Positions 31,215-61,200 of a stretch of 64,000 nucleotides of DNA are shown in pieces (the first letter of the stretch is position 1; each line of letters opens with the position of its first letter). The notes beneath the pieces are model-generated. The model was not told the DNA's origin. It saw only the letters and a list, made by a program, of their open reading frames with translations, and did not search any database. This DNA is from Bugulina stolonifera (Eukaryota; Bryozoa; Gymnolaemata; Cheilostomatida; Bugulidae). Location of the stretch: the NCBI GenBank assembly GCA_935421135.1, contig OW285188.1, positions 17,833,233-17,897,232 on the forward strand. Reading direction: 5' to 3'. The position numbers and the translations under genes are program-made.

Positions 31215-34200
31215 CTAAATAATAAACAACAGTCACATGACACCAGCGTACATGTACATCTATAATTGCATAGCTATGTACACATGTTACAATTCATTTA
31301 CAAGATTTAACTAAAGGAAAAAAAGAAAACTTTGCAAAACTTACATGAATAAATAACCAGTTGCAGCGATTTATGTATTTGCTATTAGTGAAAAATGTTA
31401 GAGACTATAAAATACACCTCATGTTGGGTACGAACATATGCTCTATATACATATCTAACGGTTCATAGCCACTCTCTGAGATGGGAACAGCACGATGACA
31501 CCATGGTCCCCATGCTGACATGGTTCCCACCAGATTAACCTAGCAGATGATAAATACTGCAGAACATGTGAAATGAAGTGATTTCATTTGTACAAGAATT
31601 GGACTCAATTTCAAATAAAATGAGTAACAAAATAAAAATAAAACTCAGGAAAACAGTGTAGAAAATGACTTTTAATGTGGTGACATGCCACACTACTACA
31701 TGTAATATTAAAAAGTAATGCTGCATGTACTATAGAGGATGGCAACCAGGTACATTGGGGGCCCATTTATGTTAAATGTATGTTGATATTATTTTTCATG
31801 GTATAAAGCGGCCTTTATATATTTTCATGAGGATATGAGTGATTAATCAACATTGACTATGGAATTAAATGGGCCAGGTACTCTCAGGTGCTCTGTGTTA
31901 TCACTTACCTTGCTGGTGGTAGTGTAAGCGTTCCCCAATACAGAGCACATGGAGTAGTATTTATGGAGAGGGTCTAGGGTAGAGGGTTGCTGCATGGTAA
32001 GCCATATCTACAGGGAGAGAGAGAAGAGATAAGCTAACTACATAACATACAATAATCTCTCATGTGAGAGACAACATATTGTATTTATTTATAAGCTATC
32101 AGTCAGATAGTCATTAGGTGACACAGGAAATGACATCAAACCTATGGCCAGATAACCTCACCATCTTAATAATGGTTAATGATATGGAAAACATAAAAAA
32201 ATGGAAATTTTAGTAGCTCAGGGCGGTAATATGCAATGTTCAACTATAAGCATTGGATTAAAATTGAAAACAGCTGCAGTTACCTGCAGGCTTTATATGA
32301 ACAGTAGATGGGAATCATAAGATTGAGAACACAACTCCAACGAAATGCTAAACCAATATAATATACACCATTTTATACACACAGTACCAATGGTAGCTGT
32401 ATATAATATATTAGTTTTCCCCTCCAGGATAAGAAGGAATAGTCAGTTTTACTAAGACAAATAATTACTTAAACTTGAATTGTAGGATACCACTGTCGTG
32501 CGCAAAAGTCAATAATGCACCCAATTTCTAAAGGCATTATTTCATGTAGTATGAGGTAGTAAATATTCATAAGAATATACAGTTATACCATTGAAATTTA
32601 TTTAGGTAGTATATAGTATAGTATATATTAGTGTCTATATGCTGAAAGATAGTCGGTAGTCAAGATAGCCGATAGTCAACCTGTTTTCTCCATTGAAATT
32701 TATTTAGGTAGTATATAGTATAGTATATATTAGTGTCTATATGCTGAAAGATAGTCGGTAGTCAAGATAGCCGATAGTCAACCTGTTTTCTCCATTGAAA
32801 TTTATTTAAGTAGTATATAGTATAGTATATATTAGTGTCTATATGCTGAAAGATAGTCGGTAGTCAAGATAGCCGATAGTCAACCTGTTTTCTCCATTGA
32901 AATTTATTTAGGTAGTATATAGTATAGTATATATTAGTGTCTATATGCTGAAAGATAGTCGGTAGTCAAGATAGCCGATAGTCAACCTGTTTTCGCCATT
33001 GAAATTTATTTAGGTAGTATATAGTATAGTATATATTAGTGTCTATATGCTGAAAAATAGTCGGTAGTCAAGATAGCCGATAGTCAACCTGTTTTCTCCA
33101 TTGAAATTTATTTAGGTAGTATATAGTATAGTATATATTAGTGTCTATATGCTGAAAGATAGTCGGTAGTCAAGATAGCCGATAGTCAACCTGTTTTCTC
33201 CATTGAAATTTATTTAGGTAGTATATAGTATAGTATATTAGTGTCTATATGCTGAAAGATAGTCGGTAGTCAAGATAGCCGATAGTCAACCTATTTTCTC
33301 CATTGAAATTTATTTAGGTAGTATATAGTATAGTATATATTAGTGTCTATATGCTGAAAGATAGTCGGTAGTCAAGATAGCCGATAGTCAACCTGTTTTC
33401 TCCATTGAAATTTATTTAGGTAGTATATAGTATAGTATATATTAGTGTCTATATGCTGAAAGATAGTCGGTAGACAAGATAGCCAATAGTCAACCTGTTT
33501 TCTCCATTGAAATTTAGTTAGGTAGTATATAGTATAGTATATATTAGTGTCTATATGCTGAAAGATAGTCGACAGTCAAGATAGCCGATAGTCAACCTGT
33601 TTTCTCCATTGAAATTTATTTAGGTAGTATATAGTATAGTATATATTAGTGTCAATATGCTGAAAGATAGTCGGTAGTCAAGATAGCCGATAGTCAACCT
33701 GTTTTCTCCATTGAAATTTATTTAGGTAGTATATAGTATAGTATATACTAATGTCTATATGCTGAAAGATAGTCGGTAGTCAAGATAGCCGATAGTCAAC
33801 CTGTTTTCTCCATTGAAATTTATTTAGGTAGTATATAGTATAGTATATATTAGTGTCTATATGCTGAAAGATAGTCGGTAGTCAAGATAGCCGATTGTCA
33901 ACCTGCTTTCTCCATTGAAATTTATTTAGATAGTGTATAGTATAGTAAATATTAGTGTCTGTATGCAGAAAGGTAGTCGATAGTCATGGGTAGATGGTAG
34001 TCAACCAGCTTTCCCCATTGAGATTTATTTAGGTAATATATGGTATAGTATATGTTAGTTTCTATATGCATACAGGTAGTCGATAATCATGGGTAGTTGG
34101 TAGTCAACCAGCTTTCCCCATTGAAATTTATTTAGGTGGTATATAGGACAATATATGTTAGTGTTTATACACGTAAAGGTAATCGGTCTCCCTTGTGTAA

Positions 34201-37200
34201 AGTATACAATGCTATTTTTCCATCTGGTAACCCTTGTCTTCTTCTGTAGCCAGTTCCTTTTCCATCTTGGTTTCGGACAAATAAGGAGGTACAACTGGGC
34301 GTTTGAACTTCGAAAATCTTCTCCGGGCCGGAAATTGGAATACCTTCCAGTGTAAACCTGTCGAGTACATAGGCTGAAATGTATGAATGTAGCTAATAAC
34401 ATCTCGACTCCTAGCACAGCTGAAATCTTGAAATATAACCATTCTGTTTATTTTCAATGTAAAAAAACACTCATCAGATGAACTGGTTTTGTCGTTTACC
34501 ACGAAATATTCAATCATCTGAGGGTAGTTTTACAGCGACAATGAGCGAGAAAATGCGATTTCGCAATAATGTTAGCTTGAGGAAACTTTAAATGCAATTA
34601 CAAAAATCACACGTCATTTCTGTTCTCATAGTACCGAAGGAACCTCCCTTTTTTTAAAGATTTCTAGCACTTGAGGTGCGGCGAAGTATTTTTTTGCATG
34701 AAACTCTTGATCATACATAAATATTTTGATATGCAAATTTCTACACCTCACATAGTGCCAGTATAGTTGTTGTGGTCAATTTATTTATCATACAAGTAAA
34801 AATAACAAACATTTGTCAGATCGCCATTGATAAGCTGGAAAAGATTGGTTTAGTGTTAGTGCTCATGCGTAACGGTAAACACTGTCCAATTAGAAGTGGT
34901 TGTGCCTGCAGGTTTCTATATTAACCACAGTAACAACAGCTGCACATGGCCTAATAGCAGTTACCAGTATTACCAGACATAACTAGTAATACTAGATAGT
35001 TATAATATTGTTGTTTAGGATTGCTATTGCTATGATGCCCTAATGGCTATATGAATTGAGTTGCGGGAGGTTTATAATATGTTAGACTGGGGCAATACAA
35101 CAGCTACAACAATGGATAGCTGTTTGTTTTACTGCTGCAAAAAATATCAAAGACACACCAGTTATTCTCTTTGCCATATTAACCCCCTAAAGTGGGGAAT
35201 ATGTGTGAATGTGTTCTGATGTCCTGCATATAGAAAGTTGATCTCAACATTCACTCAGGGAGAACATGTGTCACTTTTCCTAACAAGTATTCTTCAAAAT
35301 TGATCAACAAACCGGCTCTAGCAACTAAAAGTCACGTTAAAGATCCTCCTCTGCCCTGATTCGCAAAGAGAAGCCAGATTCTGGCGGGGTATGTGACCAC
35401 ATTGGGGTGGCAGGTTGATGTAGTGGTCACTGACCATGCATTCCTGTTGTGGAAGGTGAGCTCTTCCACTCAGAGCCCAGTTCCTGTCGCTCATACAAGC
35501 TTCGAACTTCTGAGGTCCGTTAAATCGGATGGCCAAGTGGCTCGACAGTAACAAAAAAAAAATACTTCATTACTCTAGGTATTTTGGTACATGTAATACA
35601 CTTATATCTATATACACACAGTAGATAATATACCCATACATACATCCTTCTACTATAAAACATAGGCTACTTGCAGTATTAGAGAGCAATATTCAGTGAA
35701 TCATGCTACATGCAATGTCAACAGGAAAGTAGACCAAAAAGTCGTTGGCTCTCAAATTCGCCATGTATGTTCATAAGTAGCGTAATTTATTTATTTGTTG
35801 CTTTTAGTACTGAACATAACTAATAGTGGTAGGTGAAATAAACTACATAATAATGTTACATTTTGGTGTTAAATCGCAAACTATTGATATTTTTGGCTGC
35901 ATCCTAAGATACTTGATGCAACATCTGTAGCTGCATGCATATCTAGTAATACAACCAGAAGTAATGCATTTCAACCAAGTTCTGAAAGCAACTCTGATGG
36001 CAGCATTTGAGTGTTTTTATCAACTTCTAAAAGGCCTCTTAGTCTCCGAGGTCACTTGAATTTGTATAATATTTTCATTAACTGGATTATTATTATTGCT
36101 GCTCACAACTCTTCATGCCTAGCCTATTGGTGTGGGATGTAGACAAGTAGGAAATGTTGATAGAGAGGTTTAGAAACCTATGACTTGTATGTTCATAGGA
36201 ATCTCACACGTTCAGTAGTGGATATTAACAAATATTTTTCAAACTATTCCTAACTTTATGCTATTTTAAAATGACTGTGTTCCTTTGTTGAATGTTACAT
36301 TATGTAATTTAAACAGAGTTTCTCAAACACATTAGAAGTCTGTGATAGTGATGTCCTGGTTATACATAACAATTTTCGAAATCGATAAAAAAATCTGTAC
36401 AATTGTACTAAAATGTGCCATTACACCTAGAACTGGCACTTTAGGAGGTGTAGAAAAGTCATATTTGAAATCTGATCTAGACACATGTTTTTTTATGTGG
36501 CCCATCTTCGATTGCTAGAGTGGCTACTTTTTTTTCACGATATTCAGAGGTTGCTTCTGTACTATCATATGAGTGATCTGTACAGTTTCTAAATAGATGT
36601 TCTCCAATCAGACAGTTTGGCGGAAAAACAGATATTTTCGCTGATCACTTTTATTTCCCCAAAGACTTTTACTGCTTGTTCCAATATTGGCAAGCTCACA
36701 ACACATTCTAGGGTGAGCGATTAATCAGCACTATATGGTTAATCATGATAAAATATTATTTCGACATTTGCTGCCAGAGGTATGATTGTAACATTACTGC
36801 CAGATTAATTCACCAGGAATGCAGAACAGTATCATAGTTGTGTGCATCGTTTGTGCTACACAATGTACATCATGTACACATAGATGTGTGTTTTGTAAAA
36901 GTAGAGTGACCTAGAATAATATGCAAGAGTAGACAATTATATTTGTTCTATAAATACCTGGTTGTGGAGGCAGATACAGCGAGTTTACCTTGAGATCCAG
37001 AGTGGTGTTCATGGCTTGTACATGCAGTTGTAGCAGAGGACTAGTTTAGGAATGAATACCAGTTATACAGACAGTACTTCCATCATAACTGACTAGGTTG
37101 TGCCCATTGTTCATTATGCCCATCTTTCAAGCCACATAATATTCTATAACACAGTTGGTTTGCTTAGTTGTACAGCTGTGTACCCTACCATTAGGTGTTG

Positions 37201-40200
37201 TATTTCATGTACACCCTTTGTATCTAACATATAATTACAGGATTAGTAGTTGTTAGTGAAATACATTATTAGAATTTATCTCTTATCAGTAAACAATCTG
37301 TATTTGTGAGACACCATGTTGTATGGCACTAAATTATCTCATCTGTTTACCTAATACTGGCTTTGCAGCACTGATTTCTGCTATTCTTCGTCCACATACA
37401 TGTATTATGTCTTTAGCAAAGCAGAGATTCAAACAAGACATCAAAGCCTCAACAAATGTTATCAATAAATAATAGCAAAGTAATATGGTTTCAATAAATT
37501 CATTCTTTGGTCCTAAGGTCTGTAACATAGCATTTTACTTTCTGATAATAACTATATGCCTGTATTTTGTGGGAGAGAGGTTTCCACCTCTTATCAGTAA
37601 ACAATCTGTATTTGTGAGACACCATGTTGTATGAAGCTAAATTATCTCATTGGTTTTGTAGCACTGATTTCTGCTATCCTTGGTCCACAGACATGTATTA
37701 TCTCTTTAGTCAGGCAGTTAGTGCTGGGAAGAGCTGCATGTAGTTAAGAAGCTCTGCTTGGCTACTTAACAAGGTGAATACGAAAGGTTTATTGATATTA
37801 CAAATGTGTATGGCATAACATATTAACCATGTACCTGAAAAGCAGATGCTTTCAAAAAGACTTATGTAATTGCTGATTTAAACAGACTGGTACACGCAGC
37901 TGTTTAGCTATATGATACATAGTTGAATATTTGAATGTTTGAATCTCTGCCTGACTGAAGACATAATACACGTATGTGGACCAAGGATAGCTGAAATCAG
38001 TGCTACAAAACCAATATTATGTTAACAGATGAGATAATTTAGTTCCATACAACATGGTGTCTCACAAATACAGATTGTTTACTGATAAGAGATAAATTCT
38101 AATAATGAATTTCACTAACAACTACTAATCCTGTAATTATATGTTAGATACAAAGGGTGTACATGAAATACAACACCTAATGGTAGGGTACACAGCTGTA
38201 CAACTAAGCAAACCAACTGTGTTATAGAGTATTATGTGGCTTGCAAGATGGGCATAATGAACAATGGGCACAGCCTAGTCAGTCATGATGGAAGTACTGT
38301 CTATATAACTGGTATTCATTGCTAAACTATTCCTCTGCTACAACTACATGTACAAGCCATGAACACCACTCTGGATCTCAAGGAAAACTCGCTGTATCTG
38401 CCTCCAACCAGGTATTTATAGAACAAATATAAGTGTCTACTCTTGCATATTACTCTAGGTCACTCTACTTTTACAAAACACACATCTAGGTGTACATGAT
38501 GTACATTGTGTAGCACAAACGATGCACACAACTATGATTCTGTTCCGCATTTCTGGTGTATTAATCTGGCAGTAATGTTACAATCATACCTCTGGCAGCA
38601 AAAGTCGAAAAAATATTTTATCATGATTAACCATAATAAAAATGTGCTGATTAATTGCTTACCCTAGAAAGTGTCGTGAGCTACTTGTTTTAACTGGTAG
38701 TGTTTGTAAGCAACTTTCTAAGTGAGCATGGTTATGGTTTTGTCTGATCATTTTATATAAATTTATTTAGTCTTCAAATTTGCAAATGATGCTTGTCTAT
38801 GGTGAGGTGACACAGGACTTTCAGCATGCACTCTTTCTGATGGACTTGGCGGGTTTATGATTTCTTTTGGTTTACCGAATCTATTGACAATTTGATCACA
38901 CTTTAAATATAGAGCAACAACCACATATTATACTTGTGTAGCATGAACATGTAATTCACTTAAAACAACAAAATGTAACATTATTATGTAGCTTATTTCA
39001 CCTACCATTATTAGTTATGTTCAGTACTAAAAGCAAGCAATAAATAAATTACACTACTTATGAACACACATGGCCAATTTGAGAGCCAACGACTTTTTGG
39101 TCTAGTTCCCCGTTGACATTGCGTGTAGCATGATTCATTGAATATTGCTCTCTAATAATGCAAGTAGCCTATGTTATATAGTAGAAGGATGTATGCATGG
39201 GTATATTATTCTACTGTACATGTATATAAATATAGGTGTATTACATGTACCAAAATACCTAGAGTAATGAAGTATTGATGACTTTTAGTTGCTAGAGCCG
39301 GTTTGTTGATTAATTTTGAAGAATACTAGTTAGGAAAAGTGACACGTGTTCTCCCTGAGTGAATGTTGAGACCAACTTTCTATATGCAGGACATCAGAAC
39401 ACATTCACACATATTCCCCACTTTAGGGGGTTAATATGGCAAAGAGAATAACTGGTGTGTCTTTGATATTTTTTGCAGCAGTAAAACAAACAGCTATCCA
39501 TTGTTGTAGCTGTTTTATTGCCCCAGTCTAACATATTATAAACCTCCCGCAACTCAATTCATATAGCCATTAAGGCATCATAGCAGTAGCAATCCTAAAC
39601 AACAATATTATAACTATCTAGTATTACTAGTTATGTCTAGTAATACTAGCAACTGCTATTTGGCCATGTGCAGCTGTTGTTACTGTGGTTACTATAGAAA
39701 CCCCTAGGCACAACCACTTCTAATCGGACAGTGTTTACCATTACGCATGAGCACTAACACTAAACGAATATTTTCCAGCTTATCAATGGCGATCTGACAA
39801 ATGTTTGTTATTTTTACTTGCACGATAAATCAATTGACCACAAGAACTATAATACTGGCACTATGTGAGGTGTAGAAATGTGCATCAAAATATTTATGTA
39901 TGATCAAGAGTTTCATGCAAAAAATACTTGACCGCACCTCAAGTGCTAGAAATCTTTACAAAAAGGGAGGTTGGTTCTGTACTATGAGAACAGAAATGAC
40001 GTGTGATTTTTATAATTGCATTTAAAGTTTCCTCAAGCTAACATTATTGCGAAGTCGCATTTTCTCGCTCATTGTTGCTTCATTCTGTAAAACTACCCCT
40101 CAAATGATTGACTGTTTCATGGTAAACGACAAAACCAGTTCATCTGACGAGTGTTTTTTTATACAGACAATGAATAGAATGGTTATATTTCAAGATTTCA

Positions 40201-43200
40201 GCTGTGCTAGGAGTAGAGATGTTATTAGCTACATTCATACATTTCAGCCTATGTACTCGACAGGTTTACACTGGAAGGTATTCCAATTACAGCCTGGAGA
40301 AGATTTTCGAAGTTCAAACGCCCAGTTGTACGTCCTTATTTGTCCGGAACCAAGATGGAAAAGGAACTGGCTACAGAAAAAGACAAGGGTTACCAGATGG
40401 AAAATAGCATTTTATACTTTACACAAGGGAGACCGACTCTCTCTACGTGTATAAACACTAACATATACTATACAATATACTACCTAAATAAATTTCAATG
40501 GGGAAAGCTGGTTGACTACCAACTACCCATGACTATCGACTACCTTTCTGCATATAGACACTAAATATACTATACTATACACTACCTAAATAAATTTCAA
40601 TGGAGAAAGCAGGTTGACTATCGGCTATCTTTGACTACCGACTACCTTCCAGCATATAGACACTAATATATACTATACTATATACTACCTAAATAAATTT
40701 CAATGGAGAAAGCAGGTTGACTATCGGCTATCTTGACTACCGACTACCTTTCAGCATATAGACACTAATATATACTATACTATATACTATCTAAATAAAT
40801 TTCAATGGAGAAAACAGGTTGACTATCGGCTATCTTGACTACCGACTACCTTCCAGCATATAGACACTAATTTAAACTATACTATATACTACCTAAATAA
40901 ATTTCAATGGAGAAAACAGGTTGACTATCGGCTATCTTGACTACCGACTATCTTTCAGCATATAGACACTAATATATACTATACTATATACTACCTAAAT
41001 AAATTTCAATGGAGAAAACAGGTTGACTATCGGCTATCTTGACTACCGACTATCTTTCAGCATATAGACACTAATATATACTATACTATATACTACCTAA
41101 ATAAATTTCAATGGAGAAAACAGGTTGACTATCGGCTATCTTGACTACCGACTATCTTTCAGCATATTGACACTAATATATACTATACTATATACTACCT
41201 AAATAAATTTCAATGGAGAAAACAGGTTGACTATCGGCTATCTTGACTACCGACTATCTTTCAGCATATAGACACTAATATATACTATACTATATACTAC
41301 CTAAATAAATTTCAACGGAGAAAACAGGTTGACTATCGGCTATCTTGACTACCGACTATCTTTCAGCATATAGACATTAGTATATACTATACTATATACT
41401 ACCTAAATAAATTTCAATGGAGAAAACAGGTTGACTATCGGCTATCTTGACTACCGACTATCTTTCAGCATATAGACACTAATATATACTATACTATATA
41501 CTACCTAAAAATAAATTTCAATGGAGAAAACAGGTTGACTATCGGCTATCTTGACTACCGACTATCTTTCAGCATATAGACACTAATATATACTATACTA
41601 TATACTACCTAAATAAATCTCAATGGAGAAAACAGGTTGACTATCGGCTATCTTGACTACCGACTATCTTTCAGCATATAGACACTAATATATACTATAC
41701 TATATACTACCTAAATAAATTTCAATGGAGAAAACAAGTTGACTATCGGCTATCTTGACTACCGACTATCTTTCAGCATATAGACACTAATATATACTAT
41801 ACTATATACTACCTAAATAAATTTCAATGGAGAAAACAGGTTGACTATCGGCTATCTTGACTACCGACTACCTTCCAGCATATAGAAACTAATATATACT
41901 ATACTATATACTACCTAAATAAATTTCAATGGAGAAAACAGGTTGACTATCGGCTATCTTGACTACCGACTATCTTTCAGCATATAGACACTAATATATG
42001 CTATACTATATACTACCTAAATAAATTTCAATGGATAAAACAGGTTGACTATCGGCTATCTTGACTACCGACTATCTTTCAGCATATAGACACTAATATA
42101 TACTATACTATATACTACCTAAATAAATTTCAATGGAGAAAACAGGTTGACTATCGGCTATCTTGACTACCGACTATCTTTCAGCATATAGACACCAATA
42201 TATACTATACTATATACTACCTAAATAAATTTCAATGGAGAAAACAGGTTGACTATCGGCTATCTTGACTACCGACTACCTTCCAGCATATAGACACTAA
42301 TATATACTATACTATATACTACCTAAATAAATTTCAATGGAGAAAACAGGTTGACTATCGGCTATCTTGACTACCGACTATCTTTCAGCATATAGACACT
42401 AATATATACTATACTATATACTACCTAAATAAATTTCAATGGAGAAAACAGGTTGACTATCGGCTATCTTGACTACCGACTATCTTTCAGCATATAGACA
42501 CTAATATATACTATACTATATACTACCTAAATAAATTTCAATGGAGAAAACAGGTTGACTATCGGCTATCTTGACTACCGACTATCTTTCAGCATATAGA
42601 CACTAATATATGCTATACTATATACTACCTAAATAAATTTCAATGAAGAAAACAGGTTGACTATCGGCTATCTTGACTACCGGCTATCTTTCAGCATATA
42701 GACACTAATATATACTATACTATATACTACCTAAATAAATTTCAATGGAGAAAACAGGTTGACTATCGACTATCTTGACTACCGACTATCTTTCAGCATA
42801 TAGACACCAATATATACTATACTATATACTACCTAAATAAATTTCAATGGAGAAAACAGGTTGACTATCGGCTATCTTGACTACCGACTACCTTCCAGCA
42901 TATAGACACTAATATATACTATACTATATACTACCTAAATAAATTTCAATGGAGAAAACAAGTTGACTATCGGCTATCTTGACTACCGACTATCTTTCAG
43001 CATATAGACACTAATATATACTATACTATATACTACCTAAATAAATTTCAATGGAGAAAACAGGTTGACTATCGGCTATCTTGACTACCGACTACCTTCC
43101 AGCATATAGAAACTAATATATACTATACTATATACTACCTAAATAAATTTCAATGGAGAAAACAGGTTGACTATCGGCTATCTTGACTACCGACTATCTT

Positions 43201-46200
43201 TCAGCATATAGACACTAATATATGCTATACTATATACTACCTAAATAAATTTCAATGGAGAAAACAGGTTGACTATCGGCTATCTTGACTACCGACTATC
43301 TTTCAGCATATAGACACTAATATATACTATACTATATACTACCTAAATAAATTTCAATGGAGAAAACAGGTTGACTATCGGCTATCTTGACTACCGACTA
43401 TCTTTCAGCATATAGACACCAATATATACTATACTATATACTACCTAAATAAATTTCAATGGAGAAAACAGGTTGACTATCGGCTATCTTGACTACCGAC
43501 TACCTTCCAGCATATAGACACTAATATATACTATACTATATACTACCTAAATAAATTTCAATGGAGAAAACAGGTTGACTATCGGCTATCTTGACTACCG
43601 ACTATCTTTCAGCATATAGACACTAATATATACTATACTATATACTACCTAAATAAATCTCAATGGAGAAAACAGGTTGACTATCGGCTATCTTGACTAC
43701 CGACTATCTTTCAGCATATAGACACTAATATATACTATACTATATACTACCTAAATAAATTTCAATGGAGAAAACAAGTTGACTATCGGCTATCTTGACT
43801 ACCGACTATCTTTCAGCATATAGACACTAATATATACTATACTATATACTACCTAAATAAATTTCAACGGAGAAAACAGGTTGACTATCGGCTATCTTGA
43901 CTACCGACTATCTTTCAGCATATAGACATTAGTATATACTATACTATATACTACCTAAATAAATTTCAATGGAGAAAACAGGTTGACTATCGGCTATCTT
44001 GACTACCGACTATCTTTCAGCATATAGACACTAATATATACTATACTATATACTACCTAAAAATAAATTTCAATGGAGAAAACAGGTTGACTATCGGCTA
44101 TCTTGACTACCGACTATCTTTCAGCATATAGACACTAATATATACTATACTATATACTACCTAAATAAATCTCAATGGAGAAAACAGGTTGACTATCGGC
44201 TATCTTGACTACCGACTATCTTTCAGCATATAGACACTAATATATACTATACTATATACTACCTAAATAAATTTCAATGGAGAAAACAAGTTGACTATCG
44301 GCTATCTTGACTACCGACTATCTTTCAGCATATAGACACTAATATATACTATACTATATACTACCTAAATAAATTTCAATGGAGAAAACAGGTTGACTAT
44401 CGGCTATCTTGACTACCGACTATCTTTCAGCATATAGACACTAATATATACTATACTATATACTACCTAAATAAATTTCAATGGAGAAAACAGGTTGACT
44501 ATCGGCTATCTTGACTACCGACTATCTTTCAGCATATAGACACTAATATATACTATACTATATACTACCTAAATAAATCTCAATGGCGAAAACAGGTTGA
44601 CTATCGGCTATCTTGACTACCGACTATCTTTCAGCATATAGACACTAATATATACTATACTATATACTACCTAAATAAATTTCAATGGAGAAAACAGGTT
44701 GACTATCGGCTATCTTGACTACCGACTATCTTTCAGCATATAGACACTAATATATGCTATACTATATACTACCTAAATAAATTTCAATGGAGAAAACAGG
44801 TTGACTATCGGCTATCTTGACTACCGACTATCTTTCAGCATATAGACACTAATATATACTATACTATATACTACCTAAATAAATTTCAATGGAGAAAACA
44901 GGTTGACTATCGGCTATCTTGACTACCGACTATCTTTCAGCATATAGACACTAATATATACTATACTATATACTACCTAAATAAATTTCAATGGAGAAAA
45001 CAGGTTGACTATCGGCTATCTTGACTACCGACTACCTTCCAGCATATAGACACTAATATATACTATACTATATACTACCTAAATAAATTTCAATGAAGAA
45101 AACAGGTTGACTATCGGCTATCTTGACTACCGGCTATCTTTCAGCATATAGACACTAATATATACTATACTATATACTACCTAAATAAATTTCAATGGAG
45201 AAAACAGGTTGACTATCGACTATCTTGACTACCGACTATCTTTCAGCATATAGACACCAATATATACTATACTATATACTACCTAAATAAATTTCAATGG
45301 AGAAAACAGGTTGACTATCGGCTATCTTGACTACCGACTACCTTCCAGCATATAGACACTAATATATACTATACTATATACTACCTAAATAAATTTCAAT
45401 GGAGAAAACAAGTTGACTATCGGCTATCTTGACTACCGACTATCTTTCAGCATATAGACACTAATATATACTATACTATATACTACCTAAATAAATTTCA
45501 ATGGAGAAAACAGGTTGACTATCGGCTATCTTGACTACCGACTACCTTCCAGCATATAGAAACTAATATATACTATACTATATACTACCTAAATAAATTT
45601 CAATGGAGAAAACAGGTTGACTATCGGCTATCTTGACTACCGACTATCTTTCAGCATATAGACACTAATATATGCTATACTATATACTACCTAAATAAAT
45701 TTCAATGGAGAAAACAGGTTGACTATCGGCTATCTTGACTACCGACTATCTTTCAGCATATAGACACTAATATATACTATACTATATACTACCTAAATAA
45801 ATTTCAATGGAGAAAACAGGTTGACTATCGGCTATCTTGACTACCGACTATCTTTCAGCATATAGACACCAATATATACTATACTATATACTACCTAAAT
45901 AAATTTCAATGGAGAAAACAGGTTGACTATCGGCTATCTTGACTACCGACTACCTTCCAGCATATAGACACTAATATATACTATACTATATACTACCTAA
46001 ATAAATTTCAATGGAGAAAACAGGTTGACTATCGGCTATCTTGACTACCGACTATCTTTCAGCATATAGACACTAATATATACTATACTATATACTACCT
46101 AAATAAATCTCAATGGAGAAAACAGGTTGACTATCGGCTATCTTGACTACCGACTATCTTTCAGCATATAGACACTAATATATACTATACTATATACTAC

Positions 46201-49200
46201 CTAAATAAATTTCAATGGAGAAAACAAGTTGACTATCGGCTATCTTGACTACCGACTATCTTTCAGCATATAGACACTAATATATACTATACTATATACT
46301 ACCTAAATAAATTTCAACGGAGAAAACAGGTTGACTATCGGCTATCTTGACTACCGACTATCTTTCAGCATATAGACATTAGTATATACTATACTATATA
46401 CTACCTAAATAAATTTCAATGGAGAAAACAGGTTGACTATCGGCTATCTTGACTACCGACTATCTTTCAGCATATAGACACTAATATATACTATACTATA
46501 TACTACCTAAATAAATTTCAATGGAGAAAACAGGTTGACTATCGGCTATCTTGACTACCGACTATCTTTCAGCATATAGACACTAATATATACTATACTA
46601 TATACTACCTAAATAAATTTCAATGGAGAAAACAGGTTGACTATCGGCTATCTTGACTACCGACTATCTTTCAGCATATAGACACTAATATATACTATAC
46701 TATATACTACCTAAATAAATCTCAATGGAGAAAACAGGTTGACTATCGGCTATCTTGACTACCGACTATCTTTCAGCATATAGACACTAATATATACTAT
46801 ACTATATACTACCTAAATAAATTTCAATGGAGAAAACAGGTTGACTATCGGCTATCTTGACTACCGACTATCTTTCAGCATATAGACACTAATATATGCT
46901 ATACTATATACTACCTAAATAAATTTCAATGGAGAAAACAGGTTGACTATCGGCTATCTTGACTACCGACTATCTTTCAGCATATAGACACTAATATATA
47001 CTATACTATATACTACCTAAATAAATTTCAATGGAGAAAACAGGTTGACTATCGGCTATCTTGACTACCGACTATCTTTCAGCATATAGACACCAATATA
47101 TACTATACTATATACTACCTAAATAAATTTCAATGGAGAAAACAGGTTGACTATCGGCTATCTTGACTACCGACTACCTTCCAGCATATAGACACTAATA
47201 TATACTATACTATATACTACCTAAATAAATTTCAATGGAGAAAACAGGTTGACTATCGGCTATCTTGACTACCGACTATCTTTCAGCATATAGACATTAG
47301 TATATACTATACTATATACTACCTAAATAAATTTCAATGGAGAAAACAGGTTGACTATCGGCTATCTTGACTACCGACTATCTTTCAGCATATAGACACT
47401 AATATATACTATACTATATACTACCTAAATAAATTTCAATGGAGAAAACAGGTTGACTATCGGCTATCTTGACTACCGACTATCTTTCAGCATATAGACA
47501 CAAATATATACTATACTATATACTACCTAAATAAATTTCAATGAAGAAAACAGGTTGACTATCGGCTATCTTGACTACCGACTATCTTTCAGCATATAGA
47601 CACTAATATATACTATACTATATACTACCTAAATAAATCTCAATGGAGAAAACAGGTTGACTATCGGCTATCTTGACTACCGACTATCTTTCAGCATATA
47701 GACACTAATATATACTATAATATATACTACCTAAATAAATTTCAATGGAGAAAACAGGTTGACTATCGGCTATCTTGACTACCGACTATCTTTCAGCATA
47801 TAGACACTAATATATGCTATACTATATACTACCTAAATAAATTTCAATGGAGAAAACAGGTTGACTATCGGCTATCTTGACTACCGACTATCTTTCAGCA
47901 TATAGACACTAATATATACTATACTATATACTACCTAAATAAATTTCAATGGAGAAAACAGGTTGACTATCGGCTATCTTGACTACCGACTATCTTTCAG
48001 CATATAGACACCAATATATACTATACTATATACTACCTAAATAAATTTCAATGGAGAAAACAGGTTGACTATCGGCTATCTTGACTACCGACTACCTTCC
48101 AGCATATAGACACTAATATATACTATACTATATACTACCTAAATAAATTTCAATGGAGAAAACAGGTTGACTATCGGCTATCTTGACTACCGACTATCTT
48201 TCAGCATATAGACACTAATATATACTATACTATATACTACCTAAATAAATTTCAATGGAGAAAACAGGTTGACTATCGGCTATCTTGACTACCGACTATC
48301 TTTCAGAATATAGACATTAGTATATACTATACTATATACTACCTAAATAAATTTCAATGGAGAAAACAGGTTGACTATCGGCTATCTTGACTACCGACTA
48401 TCTTTCAGCATATAGACACTAATATATACTATACTATATACTACCTAAAAATAAATTTCAATGGAGAAAACAGGTTGACTATCGGCTATCTTGACTACCG
48501 ACTATCTTTCAGCATATAGACACTAATATATACTATACTATATACTACCTAAATAAATCTCAATGGAGAAAACAGGTTGACTATCGGCTATCTTGACTAC
48601 CGACTATCTTTCAGCATATAGACACTAATATATACTATACTATATACTACCTAAATAAATTTCAATGGAGAAAACAAGTTGACTATCGGCTATCTTGACT
48701 ACCGACTATCTTTCAGCATATAGACACTAATATATACTATACTATATACTACCTAAATAAATTTCAATGGAGAAAACAGGTTGACTATCGGCTATCTTGA
48801 CTACCGACTATCTTTCAGCATATAGACACTAATATATACTATACTATATACTACCTAAATAAATTTCAATGGAGAAAACAGGTTGACTATCGGCTATCTT
48901 GACTACCGACTATCTTTCAGCATATAGACACTAATATATACTATACTATATACTACCTAAATAAATCTCAATGGCGAAAACAGGTTGACTATCGGCTATC
49001 TTGACTACCGACTATCTTTCAGCATATAGACACTAATATATACTATACTATATACTACCTAAATAAATTTCAATGGAGAAAACAGGTTGACTATCGGCTA
49101 TCTTGACTACCGACTATCTTTCAGCATATAGACACTAATATATGCTATACTATATACTACCTAAATAAATTTCAATGGAGAAAACAGGTTGACTATCGGC

Positions 49201-52200
49201 TATCTTGACTACCGACTATCTTTCAGCATATAGACACTAATATATACTATACTATATACTACCTAAATAAATTTCAATGGAGAAAACAGGTTGACTATCG
49301 GCTATCTTGACTACCGACTATCTTTCAGCATATAGACACCAATATATACTATACTATATACTACCTAAATAAATTTCAATGGAGAAAACAGGTTGACTAT
49401 CGGCTATCTTGACTACCGACTACCTTCCAGCATATAGACACTAATATATACTATACTATATACTACCTAAATAAATTTCAATGAAGAAAACAGGTTGACT
49501 ATCGGCTATCTTGACTACCGGCTATCTTTCAGCATATAGACACTAATATATACTATACTATATACTACCTAAATAAATTTCAATGGAGAAAACAGGTTGA
49601 CTATCGACTATCTTGACTACCGACTATCTTTCAGCATATAGACACCAATATATACTATACTATATACTACCTAAATAAATTTCAATGGAGAAAACAGGTT
49701 GACTATCGGCTATCTTGACTACCGACTACCTTCCAGCATATAGACACTAATATATACTATACTATATACTACCTAAATAAATTTCAATGGAGAAAACAAG
49801 TTGACTATCGGCTATCTTGACTACCGACTATCTTTCAGCATATAGACACTAATATATACTATACTATATACTACCTAAATAAATTTCAATGGAGAAAACA
49901 GGTTGACTATCGGCTATCTTGACTACCGACTACCTTCCAGCATATAGAAACTAATATATACTATACTATATACTACCTAAATAAATTTCAATGGAGAAAA
50001 CAGGTTGACTATCGGCTATCTTGACTACCGACTATCTTTCAGCATATAGACACTAATATATGCTATACTATATACTACCTAAATAAATTTCAATGGAGAA
50101 AACAGGTTGACTATCGGCTATCTTGACTACCGACTATCTTTCAGCATATAGACACTAATATATACTATACTATATACTACCTAAATAAATTTCAATGGAG
50201 AAAACAGGTTGACTATCGGCTATCTTGACTACCGACTATCTTTCAGCATATAGACACCAATATATACTATACTATATACTACCTAAATAAATTTCAATGG
50301 AGAAAACAGGTTGACTATCGGCTATCTTGACTACCGACTACCTTCCAGCATATAGACACTAATATATACTATACTATATACTACCTAAATAAATTTCAAT
50401 GGAGAAAACAGGTTGACTATCGGCTATCTTGACTACCGACTATCTTTCAGCATATAGACACTAATATATGCTATACTATATACTACCTAAATAAATTTCA
50501 ATGGAGAAAACAGGTTGACTATCGGCTATCTTGACTACCGACTATCTTTCAGCATATAGACACTAATATATACTATACTATATACTACCTAAATAAATTT
50601 CAATGGAGAAAACAGGTTGACTATCGGCTATCTTGACTACCGACTATCTTTCAGCATATAGACACCAATATATACTATACTATATACTACCTAAATAAAT
50701 TTCAATGGAGAAAACAGGTTGACTATCGGCTATCTTGACTACCGACTACCTTCCAGCATATAGACACTAATATATACTATACTATATACTACCTAAATAA
50801 ATTTCAATGGAGAAAACAGGTTGACTATCGGCTATCTTGACTACCGACTATCTTTCAGCATATAGACACTAATATATACTATACTATATACTACCTAAAT
50901 AAATTTCAATGGAGAAAACAGGTTGACTATCGGCTATCTTGACTACCGACTATCTTTCAGAATATAGACATTAGTATATACTATACTATATACTACCTAA
51001 ATAAATTTCAATGGAGAAAACAGGTTGACTATCGGCTATCTTGACTACCGACTATCTTTCAGCATATAGACACTAATATATACTATACTATATACTACCT
51101 AAAAATAAATTTCAATGGAGAAAACAGGTTGACTATCGGCTATCTTGACTACCGACTATCTTTCAGCATATAGACACTAATATATACTATACTATATACT
51201 ACCTAAATAAATCTCAATGGAGAAAACAGGTTGACTATCGGCTATCTTGACTACCGACTATCTTTCAGCATATAGACAGTAATATATACTATACTATATA
51301 CTACCTAAATAAATTTCAATGGAGAAAACAAGTTGACTATCGGCTATCTTGACTACCGACTATCTTTCAGCATATAGACACTAATATATACTATACTATA
51401 TACTACCTAAATAAATTTCAATGGAGAAAACAGGTTGACTATCGGCTATCTTGACTACCGACTATCTTTCAGCATATAGACACTAATATATACTATACTA
51501 TATACTACCTAAATAAATTTCAATGGAGAAAACAGGTTGACTATCGGCTATCTTGACTACCGACTATCTTTCAGCATATAGACACTAATATATACTATAC
51601 TATATACTACCTAAATAAATCTCAATGGCGAAAACAGGTTGACTATCGGCTATCTTGACTACCGACTATCTTTCAGCATATAGACACTAATATATACTAT
51701 ACTATATACTACCTAAATAAATTTCAATGGAGAAAACAGGTTGACTATCGGCTATCTTGACTACCGACTATCTTTCAGCATATAGACACTAATATATGCT
51801 ATACTATATACTACCTAAATAAATTTCAATGGAGAAAACAGGTTGACTATCGGCTATCTTGACTACCGACTATCTTTCAGCATATAGACACTAATATATA
51901 CTATACTATATACTACCTAAATAAATTTCAATGGAGAAAACAGGTTGACTATCGGCTATCTTGACTACCGACTATCTTTCAGCATATAGACACCAATATA
52001 TACTATACTATATACTACCTAAATAAATTTCAATGGAGAAAACAGGTTGACTATCGGCTATCTTGACTACCGACTACCTTCCAGCATATAGACACTAATA
52101 TATACTATACTATATACTACCTAAATAAATTTCAATGAAGAAAACAGGTTGACTATCGGCTATCTTGACTACCGGCTATCTTTCAGCATATAGACACTAA

Positions 52201-55200
52201 TATATACTATACTATATACTACCTAAATAAATTTCAATGGAGAAAACAGGTTGACTATCGACTATCTTGACTACCGACTATCTTTCAGCATATAGACACC
52301 AATATATACTATACTATATACTACCTAAATAAATTTCAATGGAGAAAACAGGTTGACTATCGGCTATCTTGACTACCGACTACCTTCCAGCATATAGACA
52401 CTAATATATACTATACTATATACTACCTAAATAAATTTCAATGGAGAAAACAAGTTGACTATCGGCTATCTTGACTACCGACTATCTTTCAGCATATAGA
52501 CACTAATATATACTATACTATATACTACCTAAATAAATTTCAATGGAGAAAACAGGTTGACTATCGGCTATCTTGACTACCGACTACCTTCCAGCATATA
52601 GAAACTAATATATACTATACTATATACTACCTAAATAAATTTCAATGGAGAAAACAGGTTGACTATCGGCTATCTTGACTACCGACTATCTTTCAGCATA
52701 TAGACACTAATATATGCTATACTATATACTACCTAAATAAATTTCAATGGAGAAAACAGGTTGACTATCGGCTATCTTGACTACCGACTATCTTTCAGCA
52801 TATAGACACTAATATATACTATACTATATACTACCTAAATAAATTTCAATGGAGAAAACAGGTTGACTATCGGCTATCTTGACTACCGACTATCTTTCAG
52901 CATATAGACACCAATATATACTATACTATATACTACCTAAATAAATTTCAATGGAGAAAACAGGTTGACTATCGGCTATCTTGACTACCGACTACCTTCC
53001 AGCATATAGACACTAATATATACTATACTATATACTACCTAAATAAATTTCAATGGAGAAAACAGGTTGACTATCGGCTATCTTGACTACCGACTATCTT
53101 TCAGCATTTAGACACTAATATATACTATACTATATACTACCTAAATAAATCTCAATGGAGAAAACAGGTTGACTATCGGCTATCTTGACTACCGACTATC
53201 TTTCAGCATATAGACACTAATATATACTATACTATATACTACCTAAATAAATTTCAATGGAGAAAACAAGTTGACTATCGGCTATCTTGACTACCGACTA
53301 TCTTTCAGCATATAGACACTAATATATACTATACTATATACTACCTAAATAAATTTCAACGGAGAAAACAGGTTGACTATCGGCTATCTTGACTACCGAC
53401 TATCTTTCAGCATATAGACATTAGTATATACTATACTATATACTACCTAAATAAATTTCAATGGAGAAAACAGGTTGACTATCGGCTATCTTGACTACCG
53501 ACTATCTTTCAGCATATAGACACTAATATATACTATACTATATACTACCTAAAAATAAATTTCAATGGAGAAAACAGGTTGACTATCGGCTATCTTGACT
53601 ACCGACTATCTTTCAGCATATAGACACTAATATATACTATACTATATACTACCTAAATAAATCTCAATGGAGAAAACAGGTTGACTATCGGCTATCTTGA
53701 CTACCGACTATCTTTCAGCATATAGACACTAATATATACTATACTATATACTACCTAAATAAATTTCAATGGAGAAAACAAGTTGACTATCGGCTATCTT
53801 GACTACCGACTATCTTTCAGCATATAGACACTAATATATACTATACTATATACTACCTAAATAAATTTCAATGGAGAAAACAGGTTGACTATCGGCTATC
53901 TTGACTACCGACTATCTTTCAGCATATAGACACTAATATATACTATACTATATACTACCTAAATAAATTTCAATGGAGAAAACAGGTTGACTATCGGCTA
54001 TCTTGACTACCGACTATCTTTCAGCATATAGACACTAATATATACTATACTATATACTACCTAAATAAATCTCAATGGCGAAAACAGGTTGACTATCGGC
54101 TATCTTGACTACCGACTATCTTTCAGCATATAGACACTAATATATACTATACTATATACTACCTAAATAAATTTCAATGGAGAAAACAGGTTGACTATCG
54201 GCTATCTTGACTACCGACTATCTTTCAGCATATAGACACTAATATATGCTATACTATATACTACCTAAATAAATTTCAATGGAGAAAACAGGTTGACTAT
54301 CGGCTATCTTGACTACCGACTATCTTTCAGCATATAGACACTAATATATACTATACTATATACTACCTAAATAAATTTCAATGGAGAAAACAGGTTGACT
54401 ATCGGCTATCTTGACTACCGACTATCTTTCAGCATATAGACACCAATATATACTATACTATATACTACCTAAATAAATTTCAATGGAGAAAACAGGTTGA
54501 CTATCGGCTATCTTGACTACCGACTACCTTCCAGCATATAGACACTAATATATACTATACTATATACTACCTAAATAAATTTCAATGGAGAAAACAGGTT
54601 GACTATCGGCTATCTTGACTACCGACTATCTTTCAGCATATAGACACTAATATATACTATACTATATACTACCTAAATAAATTTCAATGGAGAAAACAGG
54701 TTGACTATCGGCTATCTTGACTACCGACTATCTTTCAGCATATAGACACTAATATATACTATACTATATACTACCTAAATAAATCTCAATGGAGAAAACA
54801 GGTTGACTATCGGCTATCTTGACTACCGACTATCTTTCAGCATATAGACACTAATATATACTATACTATATACTACCTAAATAAATTTCAATGGAGAAAA
54901 CAAGTTGACTATCAGCTATCTTGACTACCGACTAACTTTCAGCATATAGACACTAATATATACTATACTATATACTACCTAAATAAATTTCAATGGAGAA
55001 AACAGGTTGACTATCGGCTATCTTGACTACCGACTACCTTCCAGCATATAGAAACTAATATATACTATACTATATACTACCTAAATAAATTTCAATGGAG
55101 AAAACAGGTTGACTATCGGCTATCTTGACTACCGACTATCTTTCAGCATATAGACACTAATATATACTATACTATATACTACCTAAATAAATTTCAATGG

Positions 55201-58200
55201 AGAAAACAGGTTGACTATCGGCTATCTTGACTACCGACTATCTTTCAGCATATAGACACTAATATATACTATACTATATACTACCTAAATAAATCTCAAT
55301 GGAGAAAACAGGTTGACTATCGGCTATCTTGACTACCGACTATCTTTCAGCATATAGACACTAATATATACTATACTATATACTACCTAAATAAATTTCA
55401 ATGGAGAAAACAGGTTGACTATCGGCTATCTTGACTACCGACTATCTTTCAGCATATAGACACTAATATATACTATACTATATACTACCTAAATAAATTT
55501 CAATGGAGAAAACAGGTTGACTATCGGCTATCTTGACTACCGACTACCTTCCAGCATATAGACACTAATATACAGTGTATACTATACTATATACTACCTA
55601 AATAAATTTCAATGGAGAAAACAGGTTGACTATCGGCTATCTTGACTACCGACTATCTTTCAGCATATAGACACTAATATATACTATACTATATACTACC
55701 TAAATAAATTTCAATGGAGAAAACAGGTTGACTATCGGCTATCTTGACTACCGACTATCTTTCAGCATATAGACACTAATATATACTATACTATATACTA
55801 CCTAAATAAATTTCAATGGAGAAAACAGGTTGACTATCGGCTATCTTGACTACCGACTATCTTTCAGCATATAGACACTAATATATACTATACTATATAC
55901 TACCTAAATAAATCTCAATGGAGAAAACAGGTTGACTATCGGCTATCTTGACTACCGACTATCTTTCAGCATATAGACACTAATATATACTATACTATAT
56001 ACTACCTAAATAAATTTCAATGGAGAAAACAGGTTGACTATCGGCTATCTTGACTACCGACTATCTTTCAGCATATAGACACTAATATATGCTATACTAT
56101 ATACTACCTAAATAAATTTCAATGGAGAAAACAGGTTGACTATCGGCTATCTTGACTACCGACTATCTTTCAGCATATAGACACTAATATATACTATACT
56201 ATATACTACCTAAATAAATTTCAATGGAGAAAACAGGTTGACTATCGGCTATCTTGACTACCGACTATCTTTCAGCATATAGACACCAATATATACTATA
56301 CTATATACTACCTAAATAAATTTCAATGGAGAAAACAGGTTGACTATCGGCTATCTTGACTACCGACTACCTTCCAGCATATAGACACTAATATATACTA
56401 TACTATATACTACCTAAATAAATTTCAATGGAGAAAACAGGTTGACTATCGGCTATCTTGACTACCGACTATCTTTCAGCATATAGACATTAGTATATAC
56501 TATACTATATACTACCTAAATAAATTTCAATGGAGAAAACAGGTTGACTATCGGCTATCTTGACTACCGACTATCTTTCAGCATATAGACACTAATATAT
56601 ACTATACTATATACTACCTAAATAAATTTCAATGGAGAAAACAGGTTGACTATCGGCTATCTTGACTACCGACTATCTTTCAGCATATAGACACAAATAT
56701 ATACTATACTATATACTACCTAAATAAATTTCAATGAAGAAAACAGGTTGACTATCGGCTATCTTGACTACCGACTATCTTTCAGCATATAGACACTAAT
56801 ATATACTATACTATATACTACCTAAATAAATCTCAATGGAGAAAACAGGTTGACTATCGGCTATCTTGACTACCGACTATCTTTCAGCATATAGACACTA
56901 ATATATACTATACTATATACTACCTAAATAAATTTCAATGGAGAAAACAGGTTGACTATCGGCTATCTTGACTACCGACTATCTTTCAGCATATAGACAC
57001 TAATATATGCTATACTATATACTACCTAAATAAATTTCAATGGAGAAAACAGGTTGACTATCGGCTATCTTGACTACCGACTATCTTTCAGCATATAGAC
57101 ACTAATATATACTATACTATATACTACCTAAATAAATTTCAATGGAGAAAACAGGTTGACTATCGGCTATCTTGACTACCGACTATCTTTCAGCATATAG
57201 ACACCAATATATACTATACTATATACTACCTAAATAAATTTCAATGGAGAAAACAGGTTGACTATCGGCTATCTTGACTACCGACTACCTTCCAGCATAT
57301 AGACACTAATATATACTATACTATATACTACCTAAATAAATTTCAATGGAGAAAACAGGTTGACTATCGGCTATCTTGACTACCGACTATCTTTCAGCAT
57401 ATAGACACCAATATATACTATACTATATACTACCTAAATAAATTTCAATGGAGAAAACAGGTTGACTATCGGCTATCTTGACTACCGACTACCTTCCAGC
57501 ATATAGACACTAATATATACTATACTATATACTACCTAAATAAATTTCAATGGAGAAAACAGGTTGACTATCGGCTATCTTGACTACCGACTATCTTTCA
57601 GCATATAGACACTAATATATACTATACTATATACTACCTAAATAAATTTCAATGGAGAAAACAGGTTGACTATCGGCTATCTTGACTACCGACTATCTTT
57701 CAGCATATAGACACTAATATATACTATACTATATACTACCTAAATAAATTTCAATGGAGAAAACAGGTTGACTATCGGCTATCTTGACTACCGACTATCT
57801 TTCAGAATATAGACATTAGTATATACTATACTATATACTACCTAAATAAATTTCAATGGAGAAAACAGGTTGACTATCGGCTATCTTGACTACCGACTAT
57901 CTTTCAGCATATAGACACTAATATATACTATACTATGTACTACCTAAATAAATTTCAATGGAGAAAACAGGTTGACTATCGGCTATCTTGACTACCGACT
58001 ATCTTTCAGCATATAGACACTAATATATACTATACTATATACTACCTAAATAAATTTCAATGGAGAAAACAGGTTGACTATCGGCTATCTTGACTACCGA
58101 CTATCTTTCAGCATATAGACACTAATATATACTATACTATATACTACCTAAATAAATTTCAATGGAGAAAACAGGTTGACTATCGGCTATCTTGACTACC

Positions 58201-61200
58201 GACTATCTTTCAGCATATAGACACTAATATATACTATACTATATACTACCTAAATAAATTTCAATGGAGAAAACAGGTTGACTATCGGCTATCTTGACTA
58301 CCGACTATCTTTCAGCATATGGACATTAGTATATACTATACTATATACTACCTAAATAAATTTCAATGGAGAAAACAGGTTGACTATCGGCTATATTGAC
58401 TACCGACTATCTTTCAGCATATAGACACTAATATATACTATACTATATACTACCTAAATAAATTTCAATGGAGAAAACAGGTTGACTATCGGCTATCTTG
58501 ACTACCGACTATCTTTCAGCATATAGACACTAATATATACTATACTATATACTACCTAAATAAATTTCAATGGAGAAAACAGGTTGACTATCGGCTATCT
58601 TGACTACCGACTATCTTTCAGCATATAGACACTAATATATACTATACTATATACTACCTAAATAAATTTCAATGGAGAAAACAGGTTGACTATCGGCTAT
58701 ATTGACTACCGACTATCTTTCAGCATATAGACACTAATATATACTATACTATATACTACCTAAATAAATTTCAATGGAGAAAACAGGTTGACTATCGGCT
58801 ATCTTGACTACCGACTATCTTTCAGCATATAGACACTAATATATACTATACTATATACTACCTAAATAAATTTCAATGGAGAAAACAGGTTGACTATCGG
58901 CTATCTTGACTACCGACTATCTTTCAGCATATAGACACTAATATATACTATACTATATACTACCTAAATAAATTTCAATGGAGAAAACAGGTTGACTATC
59001 GGCTATCTTGACTACCGACTATCTTTCAGCATATAGACACTAATATATACTATACTATATACTACCTAAATAAATTTCAATGGAGAAAACTGGTTGACTA
59101 TCGGCTATCTTGACTACCGACTATCTTTCAGCATATAGACATTAGTATATACTATACTATATACTACCTAAATAAATTTCAATGGTATAACTGTATATTC
59201 TTATGAATATTTACTACCTCATACTAGATGAAATAATGCCTTTTAGAAATTGGGTGCATTATTGACTTTTGCCTGTCGTGCAGGTAGGGTATTTAAATGC
59301 TCAGGGAGTTGTGCTCTCAGTACAGCAAGTGAAACCATGGCAAGTTAATTCTATGTCATGCAAGGTGTGAAACACCTTTTATCTCGTTAAAGTAGTTGAC
59401 CCAATGATACTACTACACTAAGTAGAAACCTTTCCATAAGACCAAAGTAAAATACTTCTCATCCAATTTCCTTTACATTAGCAAGTAATTTAGCACTCAG
59501 TTAGATTATATCTGTAAGACAAGGTAAGGGTGCAATTAACACATTTTCTAATGTGTCAATTTCAAATTACATCTATTATATAATATATATTAGATAAATG
59601 TGTATACAAGTTGACAGTAAGGTGAATCACCCAGATACTGTTACACATTTCAAGTAAAAATATATATTGACTAAAAGTCATATAAGAGGTGGTGAGAAGA
59701 GAGGTGGTGAGAAGAGAGGTGGGAGAAGAGAGGTGGGAGAAGAGAGGTGGGAGAAGAGAGGTGGGAGAAGAGAGGTGGGAGAAGAGAGGTGGGTGAGAAG
59801 AGAGGTGGTGAGAAGAGAGGTGGTGAGAAGAGAGGTGGTGAGAAGAGAGGTGGGAGAAGAGAGGTGGGAGAAGAGAGGTGGTGAGAAGAGAGGTGGGAGA
59901 AGAGAGGTGGGTGAGAAGAGAGGTGGGAGAAGAGAGGTGGTGAGAAGAGAGGTGGTGAGAAGAGAGGTGGTGAGAAGAGAGGTGGGAGAAGAGAGGTGGG
60001 TGAGAAGAGAGGTGGGAGAAGAGAGGTGGGAGAAGAGAGGTGGGAGAAGAGAGGTGGGAGAAGAGAGGTGGGTGAGAAGAGAGGTGGTGAGAAGAGAGGT
60101 GGTGAGAAGAGAGGTGGTGAGAAGAGAGGTGGGAGAAGAGAGGTGGGAGAAGAGAGGTGGTGAGAAGAGAGGTGGGAGAAGAGAGGTGGGTGAGAAGAGA
60201 GGTGGGAGAAGAGAGGTGGTGAGAAGAGAGGTGGTGAGAAGAGAGGTGGTGAGAAGAGAGGTGGGAGAAGAGAGGTGGGTGAGAAGAGAGGTGGGAGAAG
60301 AGAGGTGGTGAGAAGAGAGGTGGTGAGAAGAGAGGTGGGAAAAGAGAGGTGGGTGAGAAGAGAGGTGGTGAGAAGAGAGGTGGTGAGAAGAGAGGTGGTG
60401 AGAAGAGAGGTGGGAGAAGAGAGGTGGGAGAAGAGAGGTGGTGAGAAGAGAGGTGGGAGAAGAGAGGTGGGTGAGAAGAGAGGTGGGAGAAGAGAGGTGG
60501 TGAGAAGAGAGGTGGTGAGAAGAGAGGTGGGAGAAGAGAGGTGGTGAGAAGAGAGGTGGGAGAAGAGAGGTGGGAGAAGAGAGGTGGGAGAAGAGAGGTG
60601 GTGAGAAGAGAGGTGGTGAGAAGAGAGGTGGTGAGAAGAGAGGTGGGAGAAGAGAGGTGGGAGAAGAGAGGTGGGAGAAGAGAGGTGGTGAGAAGAGAGG
60701 TGGTGAGAAGAGAGGTGGTGAGAAGAGAGGTGGTGAGAAGAGAGGTGGGAGAAGAGAGGTGGGAGAAGAGAGGTGGTGAGAAGAGAGGTGGGAGAAGAGA
60801 GGTGGGAGAAGAGAGGTGGTGAGAAGAGAGGTGGTGAGAAGAGAGGTGGGAGAAGAGAGGTGGGAGAAGAGAGGTGGTGAGAAGAGAGGTGGGAGAAGAG
60901 AGGTGGGAGAAGAGAGGTGGGAGAAGAGAGGTGGTGAGAAGAGAGGTGGGAGAAGAGAGGTGGTGAGAAGAGAGGTGGGAGAAGAGAGGTGGTGAGAAGA
61001 GAGGTGGTGAGAAGAGAGGTGGGAGAAGAGAGGTGGGAGAAGAGAGGTGGTGAGAAGAGAGGTGGGAGAAGAGAGGTGGGAGAAGAGAGGTGGGAGAAGA
61101 GAGGTGGTGAGAAGAGAGGTGGGAGAAGAGAGGTGGTGAGAAGAGAGGTGGGAGAAGAGAGGTGGGAGAAGAGAGGTGGGAGAAGAGAGGTGGTGAGAAG

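Follow-up and report, generated by a model that had tools for sequence, protein, structure and literature searches.

The FB/NOF elements of Drosophila are foldback elements with repeats in their inverted ends, and the known copies of FB/NOF and of FARE are smaller than the element described here, which comes from the bryozoan Bugulina stolonifera. FARE, of Arabidopsis, is likewise a foldback element with repeats in its inverted ends (PMC3169594), and giant transposons have been reviewed (PMC6431247). In the portions of the published accounts on which we draw throughout, the structurally closest system is Tetris of Drosophila virilis, followed by Tm1, Galileo and Rehavkus. Tetris has the foldback form, with tandem repeats of about 220 bp within its inverted ends, a middle domain without coding capacity and no autonomous copy found; its target duplications measure 8-10 bp, and within the element its repeats have been amplified to satellite-like arrays of at most 66 copies (PMC4079207). 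Tm1, from Meloidogyne root-knot nematodes, has composite inverted ends of foldback-like form, in which motifs are internally redundant, includes MITE-like and larger members, makes 9-bp duplications and has a class of copies encoding a Phantom-type Mutator transposase (PMC3169594). Galileo of Drosophila belongs to the P-element superfamily and makes 7-bp duplications; its long inverted ends hold internal tandem repeats (two or three in the F group), the number of which is unequal between arms (PMC3573991). Rehavkus is related to Mutator and combines a 9-bp duplication with a minisatellite before its 3' end and a PHD-finger transposase (PMC6446971).

The Bugulina element is unusually large and represents a new family of this already known foldback kind. 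Likened by structure and not by sequence, the family shares with Tetris the tandem repeats within inverted ends, the middle domain without coding capacity, the lack of a recognised autonomous copy and the amplification of repeats inside the element into satellite-like arrays, whereas its palindromic interior is unlike that of Tetris. Its duplications are most often of 10 bp (16 are exact), and its arrays reach 184 assembled units, or about 290 by extrapolation in the copy at C8:3.04. Tetris has three structurally complete copies; the large Bugulina arrays lie inside copies with intact ends and a duplication. Composite inverted ends and a size range that starts with MITE-like members recall Tm1, although no transposase of the Tm1 kind was recognised in the Bugulina copies, and the long arms with unequal repeat numbers recall Galileo. 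The 9-bp duplication and the minisatellite of the copy studied here are also found in Rehavkus, but the Bugulina arrays stand in both arms and no PHD-finger or other transposase was recognised. Among the matches listed in the literature searched, there was no foldback family of a bryozoan, in agreement with the initial annotation, which had taken the family to be probably undescribed.

Architecture of the element

The window, the whole stretch of 64,000 nucleotides that was analysed (C2:17833233-17897232), belongs to a searched genome of 234,951,659 bases in 27 contigs. For a bHLH exon encoded in the window, the top match comes from Bugula neritina (78% identity). Direct reading of the sequence recovered every structural feature of the initial annotation. 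An element of 26,771 bp (32502-59272) is flanked by a perfect 9-bp direct repeat, CTGTCGTGC, at 32493-32501 and 59273-59281 (both on the forward strand), the pairing of which was tested against mispaired flanks. The ends are exact 20-bp inverted copies of GCAAAAGTCAATAATGCACC; they start a left terminal domain of 86 bp (32502-32587, forward strand), common to most aligned copies, and close a right one of 87 bp (59186-59272, reverse strand), identified by direct reading and by the alignment of copies. Inside these domains are two oppositely oriented 102-bp arrays, to which Tandem Repeats Finder assigns, among the rows listed, 15.5 copies with 95% matches on the left (32588-34169, forward strand) and 183.5 copies with 97% matches on the right (40450-59185, reverse strand). 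Splitting by motif gives 16 units on the left, the innermost ones diverged, and 184 on the right as assembled, a length that is uncertain because this array exceeds typical HiFi reads. The assembly was built from PacBio HiFi reads (PMC10213821). Tandem array makes up most of the length of the element, and its long inverted ends hold the internal direct repeats by which foldback elements are recognised.

The interior between the arrays (about 6.3 kb) is mostly an imperfect palindrome, with 24 inverted pairs within 34100-40600, the longest eight of which are 92-96% complementary. The left inner arm (34100-36964, forward strand), also present in other copies, forms inverted pairs with 38405-40519, the main ones 92-96% complementary; this latter interval, delimited by the inverted-pair search, is the right inner arm (reverse strand). 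In the centre (36965-38406), the inverted segments 36965-37435 and 37936-38406 enclose a 500-bp spacer, which itself contains smaller repeats. A palindromic interior of about 6 kb is found in the window copy and in copies E11287, E12328, E12829 and E13964, and the interior is 96.8-99.6% identical among the five large copies aligned. Copy E12445 has part of it, E12081 and E10097 have other content, and it is absent from the seven small copies compared, so that the family shows the variable middle domain of the foldback class.

A search with 573 bp of the arm scored 40 of 85 candidates. Among these, 26 matches fall in 14 family elements, 12 of which have both arms, and the other 14 (92-94%) are situated outside them, with no partner among those listed. 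One solitary match was read and contains arm sequence in a single orientation (87-92%); because of this one copy, we think that the interior probably arose when a dispersed repeat was duplicated in inverted orientation. A coding interior was considered and rejected, since the open frame of the arm is about as variable at one codon position as at another (14/100, 21/101 and 15/102 variable columns at the three positions, in 11 arm sequences from six elements, using columns with at least nine sequences).

A dispersed family with target-site duplications

The terminal 20-mer has 132 matches in the genome at up to two mismatches, and its reversed control has one. Among 100 listed ends of these 132, the neighbours within 60 kb form 23 convergent pairs and 4 same-strand pairs, and never a divergent one; two more pairs, at C8:7.35 and C10:3.70, each have one end beyond the 100 listed. 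The spans of the pairs go from 243 to 41,730 bp, both extremes being without target duplication, and copy sizes range from MITE-like to giant. The 41,730-bp pair showed no 102-bp unit at three sampled points and may be two separate ends. Many of the other inspected ends are truncated or have no nearby partner, and four break off after roughly 22-30 bp. A search for the 102-bp array gave 655 matches (38 of 82 candidates scored), the listed part of which lies at 12 loci, and coordinate comparison places each of these loci at a listed family end. The window copy was rightly described as unusually large, but it is not the largest: the pair at C8:3.04 is 39,541 bp long and has a perfect 10-bp duplication. 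In B. stolonifera, a heterozygous inversion is reported on chromosome 5 at 7.9-9.1 Mb (PMC10213821), an interval with no family end among the 100 listed of 132.

Twenty-six pairings were examined for target-site duplications, and one on C1 (28,100 bp) was dropped, its right end having a nearer partner. Of the remaining 25 end pairs, 14 have an exact 10-bp duplication, two an exact 9-bp one (the window copy and C11:7.67), three an imperfect one (1-2 mismatches across 10-11 bp) and six none. The exact duplications enclose spans from 437 bp to 39,541 bp. When flanks were mispaired (n = 650), 645 comparisons shared fewer than 4 bp, four shared 4 bp and a single one 10 bp; this last was a true pair counted via the dropped duplicate row, so that no false pairing reached 5 bp. 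The control included an incorrect right flank for C6:8.73, which was corrected for the 25-pair tally. Some of the six pairs without duplication are not single elements: at C3:16.56, inverted copies of one flank are present, and at C9:11.48, none of three samples held the 102-bp unit. The right part of C9:4.81 was also free of the unit at the three points sampled. The usual duplication of the family is thus 10 bp (14/25) and 9 bp is the minority (2/25); the 9-bp figure of the initial annotation is exact for the window copy and does not hold as the size for the family. The window copy is, in this respect, unlike most of its relatives.

Two copies, E12328 and E12829, are located in tandem DNA. 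When the element and one duplication are removed from either, the junction matches another part of the flanking DNA at 50 of 50 bases, compared with a best match of 33 of 50 when both copies of the duplication are retained. The tandem phase is restored, and these are restored empty sites.

Since tandem array accounts for most of its length, the locus could be suspected to be a satellite that does not move, or an inverted duplication of local origin, next to which the 9-bp repeat would be a coincidence. We find this hardly credible: the listed ends pair convergently and never divergently, dispersed copies have duplications of their own (exact at 9-10 bp in 16 of 25 pairs, when false pairings all stay under 5 bp), and empty sites are restored in two copies. 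The same evidence bears out the argument of the initial annotation against a chance inverted duplication (together with the 132 matches of the end versus one in the control) and its view of the locus as a single transposition unit of foldback architecture. It had also proposed a search for other copies of the end with their own duplications, with the lack of any such copy as a refutation; such copies exist. Cut-and-paste transposition via common ends is well supported, and the dispersed copies with target-site duplications that typify the foldback class are present. We are highly confident that the element is a non-autonomous foldback DNA transposon of a dispersed B. stolonifera family, probably mobilised in trans and with arrays that seem to grow in place.

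The source of the transposase

The initial annotation had proposed to look for an autonomous copy encoding a MULE transposase. In the copies read (open frames of at least 110 aa, and Pfam), neither this nor any other DNA-element transposase was recognised. These frames were listed in 9 of 15 copies or parts of copies, and Pfam was run on 9 + 10 selected frames. Introns could conceal a transposase gene from a reading of open frames, and an autonomous copy may exist elsewhere in the family. The copy at C2:18917820 (10,097 bp) turned out to be a miniature with a second element nested in it. The nested element has its own 1.2-kb inverted ends, which begin with AGTAGTAATATC, and a duplication of 6 bp (TACATG); four frames were scanned and gave no Pfam family above cut-off, and we presume from the inverted ends and the 6-bp duplication only that the nested element resembles a Polinton. 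In the copy at C6:16.08 there is a Gypsy-type retrotransposon as well as a further long frame, whose gag match lies right at the cut-off, and part of the additional length of C8:7.35 is a retrotransposon-type integrase frame.

Mutator-like genes exist in the genome: seven places with PF10551, one with PF00872, and a frame of 802 aa on C2 that has relatives. None of the seven PF10551 places (at least 1.5 kb read on each side) has a family end next to it, and neither does one further Mutator-like place (up to 7 mismatches). Two 6-mismatch matches to the end, in one scanned stretch beside a PF10551 place, were taken for chance, and the nearest PF10551 place is about 71 kb from a family end among the 100 listed of 132.

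We suggest that a transposase encoded elsewhere would recognise the ends and excise the element, which would then reinsert with a staggered cut of 10 bp, sometimes 9 bp. A Mutator-like transposase would be the best candidate, the one feature pointing to it being the length of the duplication (10 bp in 14 of 25 pairs and 9 bp in two), which falls within the 8-11 bp of MULEs (PMC6446971). The Mutator-like affinity proposed in the initial annotation is compatible with this length, but neither a recognised transposase nor a family end beside the Mutator-type genes read adds to it. The same silence around those genes would fit a foldback element driven by a transposase of another type (P-type in the case of Galileo), which we consider a doubtful possibility. 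Against it, hAT and P elements make 8-bp duplications, and the family makes duplications of 9-10 bp, neither the 7 bp of Galileo nor the 8 bp of P elements. Its 10-bp duplication is inside the MULE range (PMC6446971) and that of Galileo is of 7 bp (PMC3573991), although the foldback form is convergent, given the P-element transposase of Galileo (PMC3169594, PMC3573991). Rehavkus does not match, since its minisatellite before the 3' end and its PHD-finger transposase have no counterpart in a family with arrays in both arms and no recognised transposase.

Proposed growth of the arrays

The right array of the window copy contains duplicated blocks, the longest of which runs over 17 identical units in a row (at most 8 in 200 shuffles), and further blocks of 9-13 units. 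Across 16 arrays (one partial), the longest block common to different arrays is of 4 units (three pairs), which shuffles equal (30 per pair); the test counts identical units only, and older common blocks would escape it. A few innermost units are common to different copies, as expected if the inner edge were old and the rest of the array turned over. The interiors of copies E11287 and E13964 are 99.56% identical, whereas the corresponding arrays have 20 versus about 65 units (the latter derived from coordinates and array-search matches) and 30 versus 10. At C8:3.04, five 250-bp samples of the left arm spread over 23 kb consist entirely of the unit (98.4-100%), from which we extrapolate an array of about 30 kb, or about 290 units. 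The terminal domain resembles the 102-bp unit only marginally (for the 86 bp, 3.8% of 1000 shuffles do as well), and secondary binding sites in the unit were considered and rejected, the outer 47 and 20 bp being equalled by 94% and 66% of 1000 shuffles.

Because block order differs between copies, the arrays seem to grow where they lie. Once an element is inserted, its 102-bp arrays would expand and contract independently in the two arms, possibly by unequal exchange or block duplication, and this would account for most of the size of the element. It is quite unlikely that the arrays are instead cargo, already expanded at transposition and with no growth in place: the perfect duplications around the 26.8-kb and 39.5-kb copies speak for it, but copies share block order no more than by chance, and two copies with nearly identical interiors have very different arrays. 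Within the preferred reading of growth in place, we lean slightly towards a satellite nursery, in which intact copies would independently grow higher-order arrays of 10-30 kb after insertion, often in one arm, with an interior that stays nearly unchanged.

The element has the appearance of a transposon inside which satellite DNA is growing. For Tetris, it was argued that foldback elements can give birth to satellites within themselves, and larger arrays were suggested to be possibly disruptive to transposition (PMC4079207). In B. stolonifera, an array of 18.7 kb and a sampled one of about 30 kb lie in copies whose ends and duplications are intact, and the interiors of the many copies show how these are related, so that growth, block structure and asymmetry between arms could be measured. 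If this reading is true, the birth of satellites would be observable in replicate, within elements that have kept their ends and target duplications.

Tandem DNA and a bHLH exon in the window

A short way beyond the right end of the foldback transposon copy lies a G-rich tandem stretch of some 1.7 kb (59684-61430), with repeat units AGAGGTGGGAGA and AGAGGTGGTGAGA and a base count, on the strand as given, of G 967, A 604, T 176 and C 0. A highly uniform array of a 23-bp unit, ATGCTAACTAATACAGTAGTTAT, occupies 61712-62677 and includes 41 exact copies. The window also holds a bHLH exon (26891-27403), whose top matches are Bugula neritina Fer1 and a Watersipora subatra PTF1-alpha-like protein.

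Nested and Mutator-type repeats

The miniature foldback copy at C2:18.92 Mb is host to a nested element (stretch L039, 661-10000, continuing into L040, 1-270) with 1.2-kb inverted ends of 99% identity and a 6-bp target duplication, which is Polinton-like in these features; a Pfam scan of four of its frames gave no match above the cut-off. Another repeat, which carries a Mutator-type frame that is 802 aa long in the L086 copy and also a USP-like frame, is present in two close copies (L086, 3704-8911; L087, 100-6386) that are 97% identical. Inverted ends were not recognised in either copy.

Diverged and solo family ends

Two diverged family ends on C3 (16561441, in L035; 16581620, in L036) lie in inverted orientation, 20 kb apart, and share one outer flank; they look like an inverted duplication rather than a single element. 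At four solo ends (L020, L091, L093 and L102), the terminal sequence is kept for about 22-30 bp before giving way to unrelated DNA. These are perhaps leftovers of excision or deletion.
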